From Sulfobacillus thermosulfidooxidans (GTDB lineage Bacteria > Bacillota > Sulfobacillia > Sulfobacillales > Sulfobacillaceae): a stretch of DNA of 64,000 bases. Position 1 is the first letter of the stretch, and the number at the start of each line of letters is the position of its first letter. Positions 8,415-20,552 of the stretch are shown here, one piece after another. A program made the translations under genes and the position numbers. A model generated the notes under the pieces. It had not been told where the DNA came from and made no database searches. It saw only the letters and a program-made list of their open reading frames with translations. The DNA lies in contig NZ_LGRO01000002.1 in NCBI RefSeq assembly GCF_001280565.1, positions 496,001 to 560,000 on the forward strand, read 5' to 3'.

Positions 8415-9315
8415 GCCATCTCGGACACCTCACACCCCAACTGCTCTTCAGCTATACGGGGCTGTAGCAGTTGGGGTCTTGTCTGTTTCGAGTGCCTCAG
8501 TGCTTATACGTTTAACGCCGGCCCCAGCCAACGCCATTGCTTTTTGGCGCCTAATTCTGACCGCCCTGCTTTTAATGCCCGTCGTGCTCCGCCAACCGCC
8601 AACATGGTTCAGCTTAAGGTATCTAAAACATTTCACGGTATCGGGATTATTTTTAGCGTTGCACTTTATTTTCTGGATTCAATCGCTCATGATTTTACCG
8701 GTCGCCTTGTCGACGGCGTTAGTCTCGACGCATCCTTTACTTATCGCATCATACACGCGTATCGTGCGCAAACAGCCCTTTCCCACGCGCATTAAGATAG
8801 GATTAACCAGCGCTACCATAGGTCTTGTGATATTACCCATTGGGACAGCCTGGTCCTTTCATCAAACAGATGGCATGGTCGATGCCTTGTTAGGAGCACT
8901 TTTTGCAGGATTGTATCTCATGGCTGGAAAGCACTCCCGACAAAGCTTATCCGCGAGCCAGTATTCCTCCGGAACCTATCTCATGTCCAGCTTCATCTTG
9001 TTTCTTATCAATATATTTCAGAACCATTCCCTTGGTCCGATGAATGAGCATGTGATGATCTTATATCTTCTCATGGCTATCATTCCAACTTTGGGCGGAC
9101 ATACCACATTTAACTGGTTATTGCGATTCATGCCCGCGGGACAAGTATCCATGGCCATGATTGGTGAAATTCCTGGATCTGCGATGTTAGCGTGGCTCAT
9201 TCTCCAGCAAATGCCTTCGTGGACGGTATGGATCAGTCTTACCTTACTCACGCTGGGAATCGTTATGACCCTCATCTCCACGAAGGAACCGAATCCTGCG
9301 GATTCCGGCCTCTAA
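8401..9315 (+). CDS. EamA/DMT-family transporter
   Basis: 304 residues with ten hydrophobic helices in two homologous halves, the drug/metabolite transporter (EamA) design. Diagnostic stretches are SSASVLIRLTPAPANAIAFWRLI in the first half and GHTTFNWLLRFMPAGQVSM with GEIPGSAMLAW in the second. The substrate cannot be predicted; relatives export amino acids or other small metabolites. Translation starts inside the upstream SirB1-like gene (14-nt overlap), so the two are co-expressed. The mobA gene follows after 41 nt. Confidence 0.85.
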   Translation: MLKSEPSRTPHTPTALQLYGAVAVGVLSVSSASVLIRLTPAPANAIAFWRLILTALLLMPVVLRQPPTWFSLRYLKHFTVSGLFLALHFIFWIQSLMILPVALSTALVSTHPLLIASYTRIVRKQPFPTRIKIGLTSATIGLVILPIGTAWSFHQTDGMVDALLGALFAGLYLMAGKHSRQSLSASQYSSGTYLMSSFILFLINIFQNHSLGPMNEHVMILYLLMAIIPTLGGHTTFNWLLRFMPAGQVSMAMIGEIPGSAMLAWLILQQMPSWTVWISLTLLTLGIVMTLISTKEPNPADSGL

Positions 9316-9356
9316 AACAGGTATATTATAATGGGAATCATGGGGAGGAGCGGAAT

Positions 9357-9932
9357 GTGGACCCAATCATAGATGGAGTGGTATTGGCAGGGGGACAATC
9401 ATCGCGCATGGGCGAAGATAAAGCCCAACTGCCTTTACCCAATGGCATGCGTCTGGTGGACCGGGCAGTTTTGTTACTAAAAACGGTTGTTAACGGCAGG
9501 TTATGGATCTCTAGACCGTGGAATTATGCAAACCCAGGTGATGACGATTTGTTGGATAGCCAACCCTTTGAGGGTCCTTTAGCTGGAATTGAACGGGCTA
9601 TGACCTCTTCTCATGCGGATTTTTTAGCCGTGATGGCTGTTGACTTGCCCAACCTTCCGACAGATTTTTATAAGTGGTTGCATCCTTACTTGTCAGACGA
9701 TGTTGAAGCCCTCCTGCCACAGGGCGAGCGCCATCGCCAGCCCTTGGCCGGATTTTGGTCGACACAGTTAATAACTGACCTGGTCCATTTCCGCCAAACG
9801 GGCGGTCAGAAAGTCGAAACCTTTTTAAAGCGGCATACCGTGAAATGGGTTCCGGTGCCTGAGGCATGGTTACGTAACGTCAATACTCCTAGTGAATGGC
9901 AAGCATGGCTAAATCATCAGGAGCGTGATTAA
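9357..9932 (+). CDS. mobA: Molybdenum cofactor guanylyltransferase MobA
   Basis: 191 residues from GTG 9357, placed by GGGGAGGAG 6 nt upstream; longer upstream readings run into the EamA gene and carry no family sequence. The nucleotide-binding loop VLAGGQSSRMGEDKAQL is the MobA signature. AVDLPNLP and a product-binding region (LLPQGERHRQPLAGFW) follow. MobA joins GMP to molybdopterin to make the MGD cofactor of DMSO-reductase-family enzymes such as formate dehydrogenase and nitrate reductase. It is the first gene of a mobA-mobB-moeA run. Confidence 0.92.
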   Translation: MDPIIDGVVLAGGQSSRMGEDKAQLPLPNGMRLVDRAVLLLKTVVNGRLWISRPWNYANPGDDDLLDSQPFEGPLAGIERAMTSSHADFLAVMAVDLPNLPTDFYKWLHPYLSDDVEALLPQGERHRQPLAGFWSTQLITDLVHFRQTGGQKVETFLKRHTVKWVPVPEAWLRNVNTPSEWQAWLNHQERD

Positions 9933-9934
9933 TC

Positions 9935-10462
9935 ATGCGCGTGTTCCATATCGTCGGCTATTCCAATGTCGGAAAAACACGCCTGATTGAAGCCATGTGT
10001 CAACGTCTGAACGGGCGCATACTCGTGTTGAAGTTTTCTCATCATCCCTCAATGGATCGCCCGGGTTCCGATACCGATCGTTTAGCCGCTCACCATGCGG
10101 ATACGCTCTTGATCCAGCCCGGTCAAACCACATGGCGGAGTTCTTTGGCGTTACCCATTGATTGGTCGCAGGTGGCTCAACATTTTGAGTGGATGATATG
10201 GGAAGGAGGTAAACATTTTCCAACTCCGAAGATTGTTTTCAACTCGGCGGACATTCTTGAACACGTTTCCAATATTCGTTTAATCATTGGTCCGCCTTCT
10301 CGAAAACTTTCTACGGTTTGTGCTTATCCGACATGCCTCCCCTTAAACGAGGAAACCCGTGACAATCTCGCCGAATACATCATTCAACAACATAAGATGT
10401 TAAGTTTCGAGTGGAATGATCCTTCCGCACAACTCGTTTATCATCGCAAATTTAGCAGATAA
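9935..10462 (+). CDS. mobB: Molybdopterin-guanine dinucleotide biosynthesis adaptor MobB
   Basis: 175 residues. The N-terminal P-loop GYSNVGKT follows the first beta strand, and a second region KFSHHPSMDRPGSDT matches the conserved histidine/aspartate segment of MobB. MobB is a GTP-binding partner of MobA that aids bis-MGD formation. It starts 2 nt after the mobA stop, so the genes are one transcription unit. Confidence 0.88.
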   Translation: MRVFHIVGYSNVGKTRLIEAMCQRLNGRILVLKFSHHPSMDRPGSDTDRLAAHHADTLLIQPGQTTWRSSLALPIDWSQVAQHFEWMIWEGGKHFPTPKIVFNSADILEHVSNIRLIIGPPSRKLSTVCAYPTCLPLNEETRDNLAEYIIQQHKMLSFEWNDPSAQLVYHRKFSR

Positions 10463-10504
10463 TCGGTTCTCCTATTACAGAGATACCCAAGAAAGGCAGA
10501 CGAT

Positions 10505-11752
10505 ATGAGTTATATTAGCGTAACCGAAGCTCTGGATTTGCTTAAAAGTGTTCGAGGACTTATTCAGGACAGCGAACAAATTCCCATAGAACAGTGCTGG
10601 GGCCGCACCCTGGCCGAAGAGGTAGTGGCCCATAGTGATTCTCCTCCTTTTCACCGCGCTGCCATGGATGGTTATGCCTTGCGTTCTGGGGATACCCCTG
10701 GCACCTTCTCCATCCTCGGCCAAGTCAATGCAGGAGAAGTGTTTACCCAGCCCGTACCCCAAGGATATGCCGTGCGCATTATGACAGGAGCACCCCTTCC
10801 TAAAGAATTGGATACCGTGATCGAACAAGAAGCCGTAACTCGGCATAACCAGCATATCGAGCTTCGCCAGGCTGTTAAAACCTTGCGGAACGTCAGTACA
10901 CAAGGTTCAGAAATCACCGGTGGAACAGCAGTACTCCAACCGGGACAGTATATCGGTTCATTGGAAATGGGTTTGCTCGCATTATCCGGCTATGCCACTG
11001 TCAAAGTTTACCGAAAACCCCGCGTCTTGCTAGTGACAACGGGAGATGAATTACAAAATCCAGGGGAAGCCTTACAGCCGGGACATATTTATAATGTGAA
11101 CCGTTACTTATTCGCAGCGTTATTAAGCGAAGCCGGTGCTGAGGTCATCTGGGCTCCTCCTGCAGCAGATACGTCCCATGCCGTGGCTGAAGCTTTATCC
11201 GACCTGACATCATACGATCTGGTTATCACCACCGGCGGGGTCTCGGTGGGCGACAAGGACCATGTCATCCAATTTCTTCGCAACCATTCCCGGCTTCTGT
11301 TTTGGCGGGTTGATATGCACCCGGGTAAGTCCATTGCCGGCGCCGAGAAAGATAATGTACCGATTTTGGCGCTATCAGGCAATCCGGGAGCGGCCATGAT
11401 GTCTTGGTATCTGATCGGCCTACCCTTTGTGGTATCGTTGTACGGCGCTTATCTTCCAGTCCGTCACATTAGCGGCCGATTACGGCATCCCTTTATGAAA
11501 CCGACACGCGAAACAAGGTATTTACGCGCCCGCATCCAGGTTGAGCAAGGAGAGATATTTTTTGATACGCAGTTGCCGCAAGGCTCTGATATAATTACGG
11601 CATACCGGCAATCTGACGTTTTAGCTATTATTCCTAAGGATAGTCCTCCGGTTCCGGCCAAGACGGAAGTGAAGGGCTTGATGATTCCCGGATTGGGATC
11701 AGAACGCCTATATTGGCTTGCGCAAAAACGTCAAAAATCCCCGCCATCTTAA
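10505..11752 (+). CDS. moeA: Molybdopterin molybdenumtransferase MoeA
   Basis: 415 residues, the usual MoeA length. The N-terminal MoeA_N region contains DSPPFHRAAMDGYALRS and VRIMTGAPLP. The central MoCF-binding domain contains LVTTGDEL and VITTGGVSVGDKD, with ALSGNPGAA. A C-terminal domain IV follows. MoeA inserts molybdate into adenylated molybdopterin. AAAGG lies upstream of the ATG. With mobA and mobB it indicates that the cell makes MGD-type molybdo- or tungsto-enzymes. Confidence 0.95.
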   Translation: MSYISVTEALDLLKSVRGLIQDSEQIPIEQCWGRTLAEEVVAHSDSPPFHRAAMDGYALRSGDTPGTFSILGQVNAGEVFTQPVPQGYAVRIMTGAPLPKELDTVIEQEAVTRHNQHIELRQAVKTLRNVSTQGSEITGGTAVLQPGQYIGSLEMGLLALSGYATVKVYRKPRVLLVTTGDELQNPGEALQPGHIYNVNRYLFAALLSEAGAEVIWAPPAADTSHAVAEALSDLTSYDLVITTGGVSVGDKDHVIQFLRNHSRLLFWRVDMHPGKSIAGAEKDNVPILALSGNPGAAMMSWYLIGLPFVVSLYGAYLPVRHISGRLRHPFMKPTRETRYLRARIQVEQGEIFFDTQLPQGSDIITAYRQSDVLAIIPKDSPPVPAKTEVKGLMIPGLGSERLYWLAQKRQKSPPS

Positions 11753-12062: not shown

Positions 12063-12899
12063 ATGACAAAAGCTGAGACCGAGAAAAGAATCGAAAACGT
12101 TATTCACGCGTTTAGCGGTCATATAAGTTTTTATGCAGAACACATGCAAACGCATGAGACCTTGATCCATGATTCCGATCATGTTATGGAAACTGCTTCA
12201 GTGATCAAACTCCCCATTATGGCAGCCACCTTTCAATATCTTGTCGATGAGCACAAGTCTTTGGCTGATCCCCTAACGTTACAGGTTGAGGACGTCGTGG
12301 ATGGGTCCGGTATCTTGCAATATCTGTCTCCTGGGCTTTCCCTTTCTCTCAAAGACGTGATGACGCTGATGATTATTGTCAGTGATAATACAGCCACCAA
12401 CATGATTTTACGTTATGTCGGCATTCCCCATGTCAATCGCTTTATCCAGTCGCTCGGTCTTTCCCAAACTCGACTGCTCAAACGCATTGATTTTACAATT
12501 CCCGGTCCCATCGGTCTGGCAACGGCCAAAGAACTGGGGACGATATTAACACAGCTTTATCACCGAACGCTTGTCAATAAGGATGCGTCAGAAATAATGT
12601 GGGATATTTTATGTCGCCAACAGTACAATACCATTATGACGCGTCACCTTCCTTATGAGTGGATCACAGAAGACGGTAATAATCCTCCTCGGGTGCAAAT
12701 CGGGAGTAAAAGTGGTTCACTTGAAGGCATACGAAATGATGTGGGGATCGTTGTCACACCGTGGGGTGATTATGTGTTGGCCATTCTCAGTGAGCGCTCC
12801 CGCGATTTACGGTTCCACATAGACAATGAAGCGCTTGTGGTCCTTCCCCGGATTAGCCGGTTCATTTTTGATTATTTTACGCAAACACAGTCCTTTTAA
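12063..12899 (+). CDS. Beta-lactamase class A-like serine hydrolase, no signal peptide
   Basis: 278 residues. The motifs of the serine beta-lactamase/PBP fold are in order: SxxK as ASVIKLP (Ser46, Lys49), SDN (Ser107-Asn109), and KSG in place of KTG at about 219-221. The omega-loop glutamate of true class A enzymes is not evident; only ATAKEL occurs there. With no signal peptide the protein would be cytoplasmic, which is odd for a penicillin-interacting enzyme. A role as an esterase, amidase or peptidase is as likely as lactam hydrolysis. The ribosome-binding site is weak. The stop overlaps the convergent ArsC/Spx gene by 4 nt. Confidence 0.75.
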   Translation: MTKAETEKRIENVIHAFSGHISFYAEHMQTHETLIHDSDHVMETASVIKLPIMAATFQYLVDEHKSLADPLTLQVEDVVDGSGILQYLSPGLSLSLKDVMTLMIIVSDNTATNMILRYVGIPHVNRFIQSLGLSQTRLLKRIDFTIPGPIGLATAKELGTILTQLYHRTLVNKDASEIMWDILCRQQYNTIMTRHLPYEWITEDGNNPPRVQIGSKSGSLEGIRNDVGIVVTPWGDYVLAILSERSRDLRFHIDNEALVVLPRISRFIFDYFTQTQSF

Positions 12900-13246
12900 T
12901 GGCCATAACGATTCCAGGCTTCTTGCCAAACCGTTTCAGAAAATCCCACAAAATAGTGATCATCAATGACCCAGACTGGCCGTTTAATCAACCGCGGTTC
13001 CTCAGCGATATGCTGGATCCACTCCGACTCCGAGTGCACGAGATGCCGCAAATTCCGGTATGATGGGCTCGTTTTGGACAATAATGCGCTAACGCCTCCA
13101 ACTTTTTCGGCTAACTCGGCAATGTGGTCCTTCGGCAAAGGATCCGCAATTAAATCATGTTCCTCAAAATCAATGTGGTGGGCACGGAGCCACGCTCGTG
13201 CTTTGGCACAGGTTGTTCATCGGCTATAGCAATATAGCATCGTCAT
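12896..13246 (-). CDS. ArsC/Spx-family protein with in-frame TGA at the redox Cys: candidate selenoprotein
   Basis: The frame from ATG 13246 to the stop at 12896 gives a 116-residue product, the normal length of ArsC/Spx proteins, interrupted only by TGA at 13219-13217. Around it the protein reads MLYCYSR-(TGA)-TTCAKARAWLRAH. Spx has a CxxC at this place, so the TGA stands for the first cysteine, giving UxxC. Downstream, IDFEEHDLIADPLPKD and RLIKRPVWVIDD match the family's conserved strand and Arg-Pro region. The start overlaps the fur stop as ATGA and has AAAGGAG 10 nt upstream. A stem-loop 23 nt past the TGA resembles a bacterial SECIS. The product is a predicted thiol/selenol oxidoreductase or Spx-like regulator. 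The alternative is a nonsense mutation or sequencing error. Confidence 0.7.
13174..13210 (-). promoter_or_regulatory. Candidate bacterial SECIS element
   Basis: On the mRNA, GCACGAGC (13201-13194) pairs with GCUcCGUGC (13190-13182), an 8-bp stem with one bulged C and a GUG apical loop (13193-13191). UGUG (13210-13207) can pair with CACA (13177-13174) as a lower stem. The loop starts 23 nt after the UGA. Known bacterial SECIS elements lie immediately 3' of the UGA in the coding region and have a small loop with an early G. A weaker competing hairpin (GUGC-CAAA-GCAC) is possible. The fit was judged by eye. Confidence 0.5.
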
Positions 13247-13728
13247 CGAATCCGTTCTCCTTTGATTCCTTTTTCCGTTCGCTCAGTCTTCTCCCGCTTC
13301 GCCGCACAACTTCGGCACAATCCGTAAAATTTCAACTCGTGATCTAACACATGAAAGCCACGCTCTTTTAGGATGCGCCCTTCTAAGGGATCTAACAAAT
13401 CTTCGCCATACTCATCAACTTTGCCGCATCGAATGCAAACGAGATGATGATGGCGGTGGGTCTCTTCTTGATTAAACTCATAACGAGCCCGCCCGTCATC
13501 AAAACTAATCCGGTTCAGAATTTCTAAATCGGTTAAAAGTTCTAATGAGCGATATACTGTTGCCAGCCCAATATCTTGAAAATCTTTCTTAACAAGTTGA
13601 TGCACTTCTTCTGCCGATAAATGTTCGCCGGGATGTTCAGCAAATATGCGAATCACAAGTTCTCGTTGAGGAGTCAGCCGCTTGGCGCCCTCTTCAAGTT
13701 TCCGGTATACAGAAGACAGGTGTACCAT
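13243..13728 (-). CDS. Fur-family metal/peroxide regulator
   Basis: 161 residues from ATG 13728, which has GAGGTG at 6 nt; a longer in-frame reading to 13782 would include the putative operator and is rejected. The N-terminal winged helix contains RLTPQRELVIRIF and the recognition helix region LATVYRSLELL. The dimerisation/metal domain has THRHHHLVCIRCGKV, and a second CRSC pair gives the structural zinc site. Fur, PerR and Zur cannot be told apart by eye. Its stop overlaps the candidate selenoprotein start, so the regulator and the redox protein share a transcript. A palindrome lies just upstream. Confidence 0.9.
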   Translation of the reverse strand: MVHLSSVYRKLEEGAKRLTPQRELVIRIFAEHPGEHLSAEEVHQLVKKDFQDIGLATVYRSLELLTDLEILNRISFDDGRARYEFNQEETHRHHHLVCIRCGKVDEYGEDLLDPLEGRILKERGFHVLDHELKFYGLCRSCAAKREKTERTEKGIKGERIR

Positions 13729-13740
13729 ATGCAGCACCTC

Positions 13741-13760
13741 ATTCTCATATCTATGAGAAT
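13741..13760 (-). promoter_or_regulatory. Palindrome upstream of the Fur-family gene, probable autoregulatory operator
   Basis: ATTCTCAT and ATGAGAAT form perfect 8-bp half sites separated by 4 nt, 12 nt before the fur-family start codon. AT-rich dyads of this size are typical of Fur/PerR/Zur boxes. The transcript of this operon would begin close by, so binding would repress both the regulator and the ArsC/Spx-like gene. Confidence 0.55.
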
Positions 13761-14080
13761 AGTCTACCACTTTACTCGGCATTATCGCACGATCATATTG
13801 AGTTATTTGTTCGATGTTTTCCCACCGATCTTCAACAATTCCGCTGCACAGAAAGTAATGCCAGTTAAATCACGTTTAACCTCTATAACCGCATTGTGTT
13901 CCGCCCTATTTTAACTGTCCGCTGATGTCTTCATATAACAGGCTAATAGACGTATAAGGATTTTCCTGACCAAATTCCCCCGGCTCTTTGCCGTCTCACA
14001 ATGGATGATGGAAACACCGAAAGAACAACCAAGATTTCTAGAGACTCTGAAGCTCGCGAAGATCGGAAGATTGCGAAAGA
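13761..14080. other. Intergenic region between the fur operon and the argF terminator
   Basis: No supported gene. Short frames on both strands (about 66-97 codons) have no ribosome-binding site. It must hold the promoter for the fur operon on the right-hand side of the operator, but no clear -35/-10 pair was found. Confidence 0.35.
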
Positions 14081-17939: not shown

Positions 17940-18110
17940 TGTCTCTCTCTGACGAGAGGAGAGGAGTTTGGGTGTATCCTCTTGTCGGCGTGTGGATGAT
18001 CCCCTCTTCTGGCGTGAGTCAGCCCCCTGCTGATCATCCTCAGAAACATCCCCCACCACGGGGGCACTATCGAACCGTCCTTGGCGATTCGATAGACCGG
18101 CGCGGTATTA
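17940..18110 (-). ncRNA. Putative omega-RNA (reRNA) scaffold of the TnpB element
   Basis: Immediately 3' of the tnpB stop, the minus strand folds into consecutive stems. CTATCGAA / TTCGATAG pairs 18095-18088 with 18074-18067, and CCCCC / GGGGG pairs 18064-18060 with 18054-18050. A perfect 8-bp GGATGATC / GATCATCC stem pairs 18039-18032 with 18001-17994 around about 30 nt. A CTCTC/GAGAG stem follows near 17942-17965. TnpB nucleases use an RNA from the 3' end of their gene and the element end as scaffold, with the guide taken from flanking DNA. Position and structure fit; expression is inferred. Confidence 0.6.
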
Positions 18111-19637
18111 GGCCGTGGCCTGCGTCGGCTTGAGTTCATCCTTCGTCTTCTTTTTCTTCGAAGGATACGTAAAGGTGCCATTCCACTTGCGATACAGGTT
18201 CATCATGCCGACAAAATCGGCGTCCGCTTGATAGGCGTGATCCGGGTTCGAACACGTAAATGTGTGTCGTTGACGGACTCCTACCTGTCGATAGTCCGCA
18301 GAGCAATGCGGACACATTTGCGACGTATAGGCGGGATTGCGCTCGACCGTCAGAATCCCCTCGCGGAATGCGAGGTCGCGTACCCATCGCACAATCTGGC
18401 CGCGCAGCCAGTAAGCGCGTTTATGGTTCTTTCGCCCGGCACGGCTCATTTTTTCTTTCGGGGCTTTGTATCCGCGAAGATACTCCAAGACGATGACTTT
18501 GGCCCCGTGTTGTTGGGAAAAATCGACGATCCGGCGGGCAACCTGCCGCGCGGCGTTCTCGTCGAGATGGCGCACCTTGTTCCAGAGAAACACATTGTCT
18601 GGCACGTTTTTTTGTAACCGACCGCTTTGTGCCCGTTTGCGGCTAATCGCATTGAGTAGCCGGTGGCGTTGGTGGTTGAGAGCACTCCCAGAGATAAACT
18701 GGGTAGCGAGCAATCGACCGCACTGAAAGGCTCCCATGACGGCTAACCGATTGGCCCCTAGATCTGCGGTGACGACAGACAGATCCGGATTCTTTTGGAG
18801 TTGTTCTTGGGCCTTCTTGGGCGTCTGCACGTATTTTTCTAATGGGACGTGTAAGGCAAAGCGCAGATGGCCGGGATAGCGTGTGTCTTGTCGTGCGTAA
18901 AGCGACAGCGACCGTGCGACCCAAACCTTGGGACGCACGGCAGCGCGCTCTTCATCCGTCCAGGGCTCGTTCGGGGCTTTTCTTGCCTTGATCAGTGCCG
19001 TCTCGGTACGGATCCGCTGGCTTTCGGCTTGAGCGGATCGGAACACTTCGGCCGCGTAACGGGGTAAGACAATCGGCAAGGGCACTTTTTGCCATTGACC
19101 TGCGTACCACAACTTGACGGCGATAAACGTCTGTTGCACGGTAGCTTGCGGCAACAAGTCCCAGTCGGGATAATCGACCATGTCCGCATAGAAAGTCACA
19201 GGTTCGTTCGGTTCACCGAGCCGTGGCTCGCGCCCTGTCTTTCCGTGTTGTTCCCATTGATGAAGCAGAACACACCAGCCTTTGACTTTGCCCGCCGCGT
19301 GATTGATCGCCGCCCGGCGTAATCCTGTCGGCATCCCTTTCGCTTGGGGAATCGCTTCCAGCGGCATTAACGGGTGAGGATGCGCGGGGGTGGACAGGGT
19401 ATGCCGTTCCGCGAATGTGAGGAGTTCTTGGTTTGTCAAGTGCCGCTCCGCTGGTTCGCCGTTTTTCTTGGTGTACGGGACGTGTTCCTCAAACACGCCC
19501 CGGTGTGCCACAAAGAAGTCCATGTAAAATGCGATGACGCGGTTGTATAAGACGTGCGTTTCGACAATGGCCTTTCGCTTGATGGCATGGACTTCCTTAT
19601 GGACACCCAGTTTGATGGTCTTCGTGACCATCGCCAT
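18108..19637 (-). CDS. tnpB: TnpB RNA-guided nuclease of IS607-type element
   Basis: 509 residues, longer than the roughly 400 of typical TnpB, mainly through an extended N-terminal and middle region (about 50-240). The split RuvC site is complete: Asp292 in TADLGANRLAV, Glu385 in VIVLEYLRG, and Asp474 (or 472) in ADADFVGMMNL. A zinc finger has CPHC at 442-445 and Cys462, with His467 possibly completing it. It starts inside the end of tnpA (41-nt overlap) with GGGGAG 4-10 nt from the paired ATGs. TnpB is an omega-RNA-guided DNA nuclease, ancestral to Cas12, that helps retain the element. It appears functional. Confidence 0.88.
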   Translation of the reverse strand: MAMVTKTIKLGVHKEVHAIKRKAIVETHVLYNRVIAFYMDFFVAHRGVFEEHVPYTKKNGEPAERHLTNQELLTFAERHTLSTPAHPHPLMPLEAIPQAKGMPTGLRRAAINHAAGKVKGWCVLLHQWEQHGKTGREPRLGEPNEPVTFYADMVDYPDWDLLPQATVQQTFIAVKLWYAGQWQKVPLPIVLPRYAAEVFRSAQAESQRIRTETALIKARKAPNEPWTDEERAAVRPKVWVARSLSLYARQDTRYPGHLRFALHVPLEKYVQTPKKAQEQLQKNPDLSVVTADLGANRLAVMGAFQCGRLLATQFISGSALNHQRHRLLNAISRKRAQSGRLQKNVPDNVFLWNKVRHLDENAARQVARRIVDFSQQHGAKVIVLEYLRGYKAPKEKMSRAGRKNHKRAYWLRGQIVRWVRDLAFREGILTVERNPAYTSQMCPHCSADYRQVGVRQRHTFTCSNPDHAYQADADFVGMMNLYRKWNGTFTYPSKKKKTKDELKPTQATA

Positions 19638-20268
19638 GTGGCTCCCCTTCTTTCATCGCATTCACGAGGTGTTGGGTTTTCTGCCGAAATTCCTGCGAAC
19701 GCTTGCCATATAACCGTGCCGAAAACACGGTAATGATCGTGAGCAGATCTTCTGTTAATTCTTCTTGCGATGTTTTCGATTCCTGAACGTGCACGGACTC
19801 AATGGTGACGCCGTGGCTGTTCAAATATCGTTCCAGATAGCGATAGCCAAAACGTGCCAATCGATCAGGATATTCAATCAATACTCGTTGAAATTCGCGC
19901 CGTTCAGCCATCGCGAGAAGTTGAGAGAGTTGCTGGCGGTTCTCGTTAAGGCCCGACGCTTGTTCCTGAAAGATGCGAAAGACTTCCAGGCCATGTTCCG
20001 CGGCATACGCTTTGAGCCGCTCGACCTGCCGCTCTAAGTGGCCGTCCGCCTTTTGTTTCGGAGAGGATACCCTCGCATAAATCACAACGCGGGCCGTTTG
20101 ATGACGACCGAGAATGCGTTGCACTTCTTGTACGCTATATAAACGGCGGTTTGTCGGGGATCGAACCTCTTGGATCTTCCCGCTCTGTTGCCACCGTCGG
20201 ATGGTTTGCGTGCTCACTCCGAGCTTTTGAGCGACTTTACCAATCGAGAGAAATTTTTCCTGTTCCAT
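19597..20268 (-). CDS. tnpA: IS607-family serine recombinase TnpA
   Basis: 223 residues from ATG 20268 (MEQEKF); the longer in-frame reading has no family sequence. The N-terminal MerR-like helix-turn-helix contains SIGKVAQKLGVSTQTIRRW. The resolvase catalytic domain contains VVIYARVSS with the nucleophilic serine, a region EYPDRLARFG, and a C-terminal helix with LLTIITVFSARLYGKRS. IS607 recombinases catalyse insertion and excision through a serine-linked intermediate. The upstream sequence is very AT-rich (TATATATAC), a likely promoter. The 3' end overlaps tnpB. Confidence 0.9.
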   Translation of the reverse strand: MEQEKFLSIGKVAQKLGVSTQTIRRWQQSGKIQEVRSPTNRRLYSVQEVQRILGRHQTARVVIYARVSSPKQKADGHLERQVERLKAYAAEHGLEVFRIFQEQASGLNENRQQLSQLLAMAERREFQRVLIEYPDRLARFGYRYLERYLNSHGVTIESVHVQESKTSQEELTEDLLTIITVFSARLYGKRSQEFRQKTQHLVNAMKEGEPHGDGHEDHQTGCP

Positions 20269-20552
20269 AAATTGATGATAATAGTATATATAATTGTTAC
20301 CTCTGTAGCCAGTGTCTAGCACATTTTATTCTCAATGCGATAATCTGACGCCCCACGAAGTTCGCTTCCCATTAAGCGCGTCCGGTCTCATTCCCACTGA
20401 TTCCGACCTTTGGATCTCTCCAGCCATTATCTGCTGGTGACCACACTGGGCTAGTACTAGACAGCTCGCCGCCTAAGCGGCCGCATCAGGTTATCCATAC
20501 CCGTGACATCGACCGCCTTCCAATACCTCTTTTCATTATAGCGAAGTCAAAG
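20269..20552. other. Left flank of the IS607 element and cwlD 3' region
   Basis: The element's left end probably lies within about 100 nt of the tnpA start but cannot be fixed. A GCCGC-ctaa-GCGGC hairpin lies at about 20470-20483, and a TATA-rich stretch at 20278-20295 is probably the tnpA promoter. No gene was seen. Confidence 0.4.

Follow-up and report, generated by a model that had tools for sequence, protein, structure and literature searches.

ArsC-like selenoproteins are already known. The family ArsC_rel_Se_1 (NF041106, 'arsenate reductase-like', PMC13188914) combines an ArsC fold with a UxxC motif whose attacking residue is selenocysteine (Sec), and selenoprotein arsenate reductases of the UxxS type have been reported from the Sargasso Sea (COG1393, PMC1088965) and are filed under TIGR00014 (PMC13188914). 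The Spx/MgsR regulators, in turn, are modelled by TIGR01617, and in Spx itself R60 and K62 are needed for activation at trxB (PMC2801614). In the titles and abstracts of the open-access literature covered, where absence is weak evidence, we found no link between an Spx regulator and selenocysteine; for Sulfobacillus, the only selenoproteins found there were a formate dehydrogenase with selenocysteine and a peroxiredoxin with Sec. Here we describe a gene of Sulfobacillus thermosulfidooxidans, lying in a stretch of 64,000 nucleotides analysed as a whole (the window), which very probably encodes a selenoprotein and belongs to an order-wide branch on the Spx side of the fold that appears to be undescribed.

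The gene lies on the minus strand (12896-13246) and its translation from 13246 to 12896 gives an ArsC/Spx-fold protein of 116 residues, with the sequence MTMLYCYSRUTTCAKARAWLRAHHIDFEEHDLIADPLPKDHIAELAEKVGGVSALLSKTSPSYRNLRHLVHSESEWIQHIAEEPRLIKRPVWVIDDHYFVGFSETVWQEAWNRYGH before the stop codon. The sole in-frame stop within the 116-codon frame is a TGA at 13219-13217 (minus strand), codon 10, where a CxxC motif (here UTTC) would have its attacking cysteine, and translation thus agrees with the frame as originally predicted. The ATG (13246-13244) overlaps, as ATGA, the TGA stop (13245-13243) of the upstream gene, a fur-family regulator (13243-13782, minus strand; PF01475, E 5.7e-37), and an AAAGGAG ribosome-binding site (13257-13263, minus strand) sits 10 nt 5' of it; both the overlap and the AAAGGAG had been pointed out before and are present in the sequence. 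We infer that fur and the selenoprotein gene are co-transcribed. On the other side, a gene for a class-A-beta-lactamase-like serine hydrolase (12063-12899, identified by reading of the sequence) converges with the selenoprotein gene, and beyond it mobA-mobB-moeA (9192-11752, plus strand) also converges on it. The original prediction had placed this cluster just upstream: it is indeed a neighbour but, being on the plus strand and converging, it falls outside the selenoprotein operon. Elsewhere in the window (18108-20322, minus strand), the translations read as an IS607-like element, with a TnpB-type ORF overlapping an ORF for a MerR-HTH serine resolvase.

A search of 154 genomes of the class (E below 1e-8) recovered homologs in 56 of them. 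All 36 homologs from the order carry one internal TGA, at identities from 84% down to about 37%, and the TAA or TAG also seen in two of them is merely the end of the gene; among relatives with a species name, it is carried by S. benefaciens, S. thermotolerans Kr1 (species locus L075) and S. harzensis. Eight genes from other families of the class share this column for their TGA, which brings the total to 44 (across the alignment, identity to the window protein ranges from 85% to 28%), and five homologs of the class have a cysteine codon, TGC, in that column. The gene therefore has the conserved in-frame UGA, aligned with the cysteine of homologs, that is expected of a bacterial selenoprotein gene, and the pairing of TGA with Cys that had been put forward as a check extends to a TGA common to dozens of species. 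A lone in-frame stop in one genome would look the same if it came from a pseudogene or a sequencing error. However, the same TGA recurs in 44 genes from independent assemblies, there are no further lesions, and a dN/dS of about 0.2 after the TGA (window gene against its nearest relatives) indicates purifying selection, dS being lower in the codons of the SECIS hairpin (see below); the probability of decay or error is negligible, both being refuted by the conserved TGA and its SECIS.

Within the order Sec has never been lost, while the resolving Cys is absent from 13 of the 36 proteins (the motifs are UxxC in 23, UxxS in nine and UxxA in four). On a weakly resolved tree of 89 proteins and 117 columns, the count of changes between U and C is four, and one Cys form (L064) is nested with strong support inside a Sec clade, which suggests a reversal from Sec to Cys.

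When the 44 TGA genes are aligned gap-free from the TGA, the octamer GCGTGGCT (13188-13195 in the window, minus strand) is invariant in all of them at columns +25 to +32. The octamer is the top of a stem in which columns 19-26 pair with columns 30-37 around a GUG loop. In the window this SECIS hairpin (13182-13201, minus strand) consists of a 5' arm (13201-13194), a GUG triloop (13193-13191) and a 3' arm (13190-13182) in which one C is bulged; the bulge is found in the window species and its near relatives, where the lower stem is shifted by one, and the two lowest pairs hold in just 25 of the 44 genes. The middle pairs covary (21-35 as GC, CG, AU or UA; 22-34 as CG or AU; 23-33 as GC or AU), and the stem has a covariation score of 0.289; shuffling gave 0.143 (0/500), and sliding the partners gave no more than 0.094. 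Folding energy alone did not go beyond that of shuffled sequence (z from -1 to +0.2), and we therefore rely on covariation and codon invariance. The Ala codon of the AWL motif is GCG in 44/44 Sec genes versus 4/21 Cys genes in which these residues are identical; because most of these Cys homologs do not have GCG, the constraint on the SECIS codons is not explained by the protein alone. Under the bSECIS model (PMC13188914), a loop of 3-9 nt with a G within its first two positions tops a stem of 4-16 bp, 16-37 nt from the UGA, with an MFE of at most -7.5. The hairpin described here agrees with each of these (GUG loop, 8 bp plus one bulge, 23 nt from the UGA, -12.5 kcal/mol).

The genome (3.83 Mb in three contigs, 99.98% complete) also has the required selenocysteine machinery, with SelA, SelB, SelD and tRNA-Sec: a tRNA-Sec with anticodon UCA (TCA) at C1:694215, selA (557 bits), selB (361 bits) and selD (362 bits), the four genes that the original prediction had named for a search. 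The selD gene (L158; G000:C1:2149778) itself carries one TGA, in the context PRLTQMTSKSGUGCKLG; after the TGA comes a hairpin whose perfect stem of 8 bp is capped by a GGA loop. A selenocysteine formate dehydrogenase, anticipated earlier as an MGD enzyme, is likewise encoded (L166; G000:C1:2968432), with a typical SCNRTUHAPSV and a hairpin with a GGUCU loop; compared with the GUG triloop here, this loop implies that one SelB would need to serve different loops. Among the genomes with the TGA gene, seven drafts yielded no confident tRNA-Sec (in one of these, G112, there is a match of 52.6 bits, but ARAGORN did not call it). Incomplete assembly is the simplest explanation, because sister genomes have tRNA-Sec.

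A second UGA gene encodes a glutaredoxin-like protein (YTQPGUHACTEEKAWL; L002:1141-1386, equivalent to G000:C1:2157134-2157379). The TGA is present in 11 of the 12 such genes read out, the genome's own included; these 11 come from the genus and family, and all contain GCGTGGCT at exactly the same distance from the TGA as in the Spx/ArsC-like gene, whereas the twelfth, from the relative L196, encodes a Cys glutaredoxin and has GCTTGGCT in place of GCGTGGCT. The Sec-glutaredoxin gene lends independent support to the octamer as a putative SECIS element. When the genome was searched with the SECIS model, only the Spx/ArsC-like selenoprotein gene (46.6 bits) and the Sec-glutaredoxin gene (21.3 bits) look real; the other matches, including one in the window at 10152-10179, look like chance. 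The Sec-glutaredoxin gene is followed, about 115 nt downstream, by a selC*-type tRNA-Cys (L002:1501-1593), which is tRNA-Sec-like with anticodon GCA and a long variable arm. In the relative G109 (L181), a similar tRNA is predicted at this position too, and the genome that contains the window has a canonical tRNA-Cys(GCA) as well (L201:1595-1669).

Opal-decoding tRNA-Cys of the selC* type is known elsewhere (PMC7609411), and with such a tRNA in the genome the UGA might be read as cysteine or, by another suppressor tRNA or near-cognate readthrough, as cysteine or tryptophan. Yet the selC*-type tRNA-Cys has the anticodon GCA, not UCA, the tRNA-Sec is the only tRNA with a UCA anticodon among the tRNA genes found by Rfam and read with ARAGORN, and the SECIS hairpin is conserved in TGA genes only; we consider such decoding very improbable. 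By contrast, we are highly confident that the UGA at codon 10 is read as selenocysteine (residue 10) and that the gene encodes a selenoprotein: the sel genes, the shared TGA column and the covarying SECIS hairpin, a feature absent from the original prediction, sustain the candidate as first proposed, and selenocysteine insertion has the strongest support that sequence by itself can give. On the basis of homology, a ribosome translating the fur-spx message would meet the UGA at codon 10, and the hairpin starting 15 nt after it would recruit SelB with Sec-tRNA(UCA), leading to insertion of Sec without termination.

Which family the protein belongs to is less simple. For an AlphaFold2 model (pLDDT 96.4) the nearest structures include YffB/ArsC-like 1rw1, with a Z of 17.4, and Spx 1z3e, with a Z of 16.5, and the best Foldseek matches are Spx; no second ArsC/Spx relative was found in the genome at E below 1e-8. 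The protein scores 48 bits with Pfam ArsC and passes TIGR01617 (Spx/MgsR, NCBIfam), being just over its cut-off with 77.9 bits against 75.05, and some relatives fall below it (e.g. L033, 67.5). It has 30% identity to B. subtilis Spx (Z 16.5) and keeps the equivalents of G52 and R92, but it has Sec for C10, Thr and Pro in the columns of Spx R60 and K62, and no Spx-length C-terminal tail. The models of Spx proper, NF002459, NF009885 and NF009210, gave 65, 56 and 43 bits, below their cut-offs of 123, 152 and 159. TIGR00014 (arsC) gave 30.3 against 106.05, and the ArsC_rel_Se_1 model NF041106, whose members resemble the window protein in their fold and in the position of Sec, gave 26.1 against 85. 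The arsenate-binding R60 of E. coli plasmid ArsC aligns with Ser in the window protein (the ArsC reference sequence being identical to PDB 1i9d). Filing as an arsenate reductase, as Spx proper or under NF041106 was thus rejected on curated cut-offs. The Sargasso Sea proteins are likewise Sec members of the ArsC superfamily, and some relatives in the order also have UxxS; what sets them apart is their filing under TIGR00014, which the window protein fails. Sec ArsC/Spx-like proteins also occur in Syntrophaceae and SAR202 Chloroflexota (L101, L103, L105, L129 and others). They belong to the same ArsC/Spx family, with U in the same column and an EPRLIRRP motif, but form a separate clade (support 100/98), have AREFLL where ARAWL is found here and differ in the apical hairpin sequence. 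The four that were scanned are below the cut-offs of both NF041106 and TIGR01617.

A Fur gene is directly upstream of the selenoprotein gene in 34 of the 36 genomes of the order, the two in which it does not hold this position being of one genus (L030 and L041); in the more distant Sec relatives no upstream Fur gene was seen. By guilt by association, this pairing points to a possible function under stress from iron or oxidants. The operon-like pairing with a regulator gene would also suit a transcription factor, a Sec-containing Spx that, under oxidative stress, would form a selenenylsulfide and bind the alpha C-terminal domain of RNA polymerase, acting with Fur; the TIGR01617 score, the Foldseek matches and the retained G52 and R92 equivalents all speak for it, and UTTC supplies the two redox residues of Spx proper. 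However, scores far below the cut-offs of the Spx-specific models, and the absence of both R60 and K62, which Spx needs at trxB, make it rather unlikely. An Spx switch needs both redox residues, yet 13 of the 36 proteins lack the second Cys, so that an intramolecular switch is not the conserved feature. That Sec-Spx would sense oxidants through a selenenylsulfide, act on RNA polymerase and form an iron-redox pair with Fur across the order, we hold to be distinctly unlikely.

The gene might alternatively encode a selenocysteine arsenate reductase, suited to arsenic-rich acid habitats. There are reported UxxS-type precedents (PMC1088965), the protein matches Pfam ArsC and has ArsC folds among its structural neighbours, and S. 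thermotolerans, in which one study found no arsC (PMC7409299), has the selenoprotein gene. Against this, the TIGR00014 score is far below its cut-off and the genes nearby are fur and moeA instead of ars genes. The arginines of ArsC are needed for this activity and the equivalent of R60 is missing, which leaves arsenate reduction quite improbable.

Judged from the sequences, the protein is probably a small cytosolic selenol oxidoreductase, a reading favoured because the selenol is invariant and the second thiol dispensable. Of the two roles originally offered, a UxxC oxidoreductase or an Spx-like regulator, the first thus fits better, the second being weakened by the missing R60 and K62 and by the loss of the resolving Cys. 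At the N-terminal CxxC-type position of a thioredoxin superfamily fold, the Sec selenol would be the attacking nucleophile, directed at a disulfide, a sulfenic acid or a similar substrate. In UxxC members the second Cys would resolve the selenenylsulfide, and UxxS and UxxA members would require an external thiol. The oxidoreductase may work alongside Fur in an iron- and oxidant-rich acidophile.

TGA genes of this kind are easily missed, as standard annotation would call them broken or start them late. A clean, covarying SECIS is common here to two different selenoproteins and altered in one natural Cys variant (L196), which makes recognition of the GUG triloop by SelB directly testable, and the chemistry is testable through the relatives that have Sec without a resolving Cys. 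Selenocysteine has thus been kept, next to Fur, in a common redox fold close to the Spx regulators across a whole acidophile-rich order.
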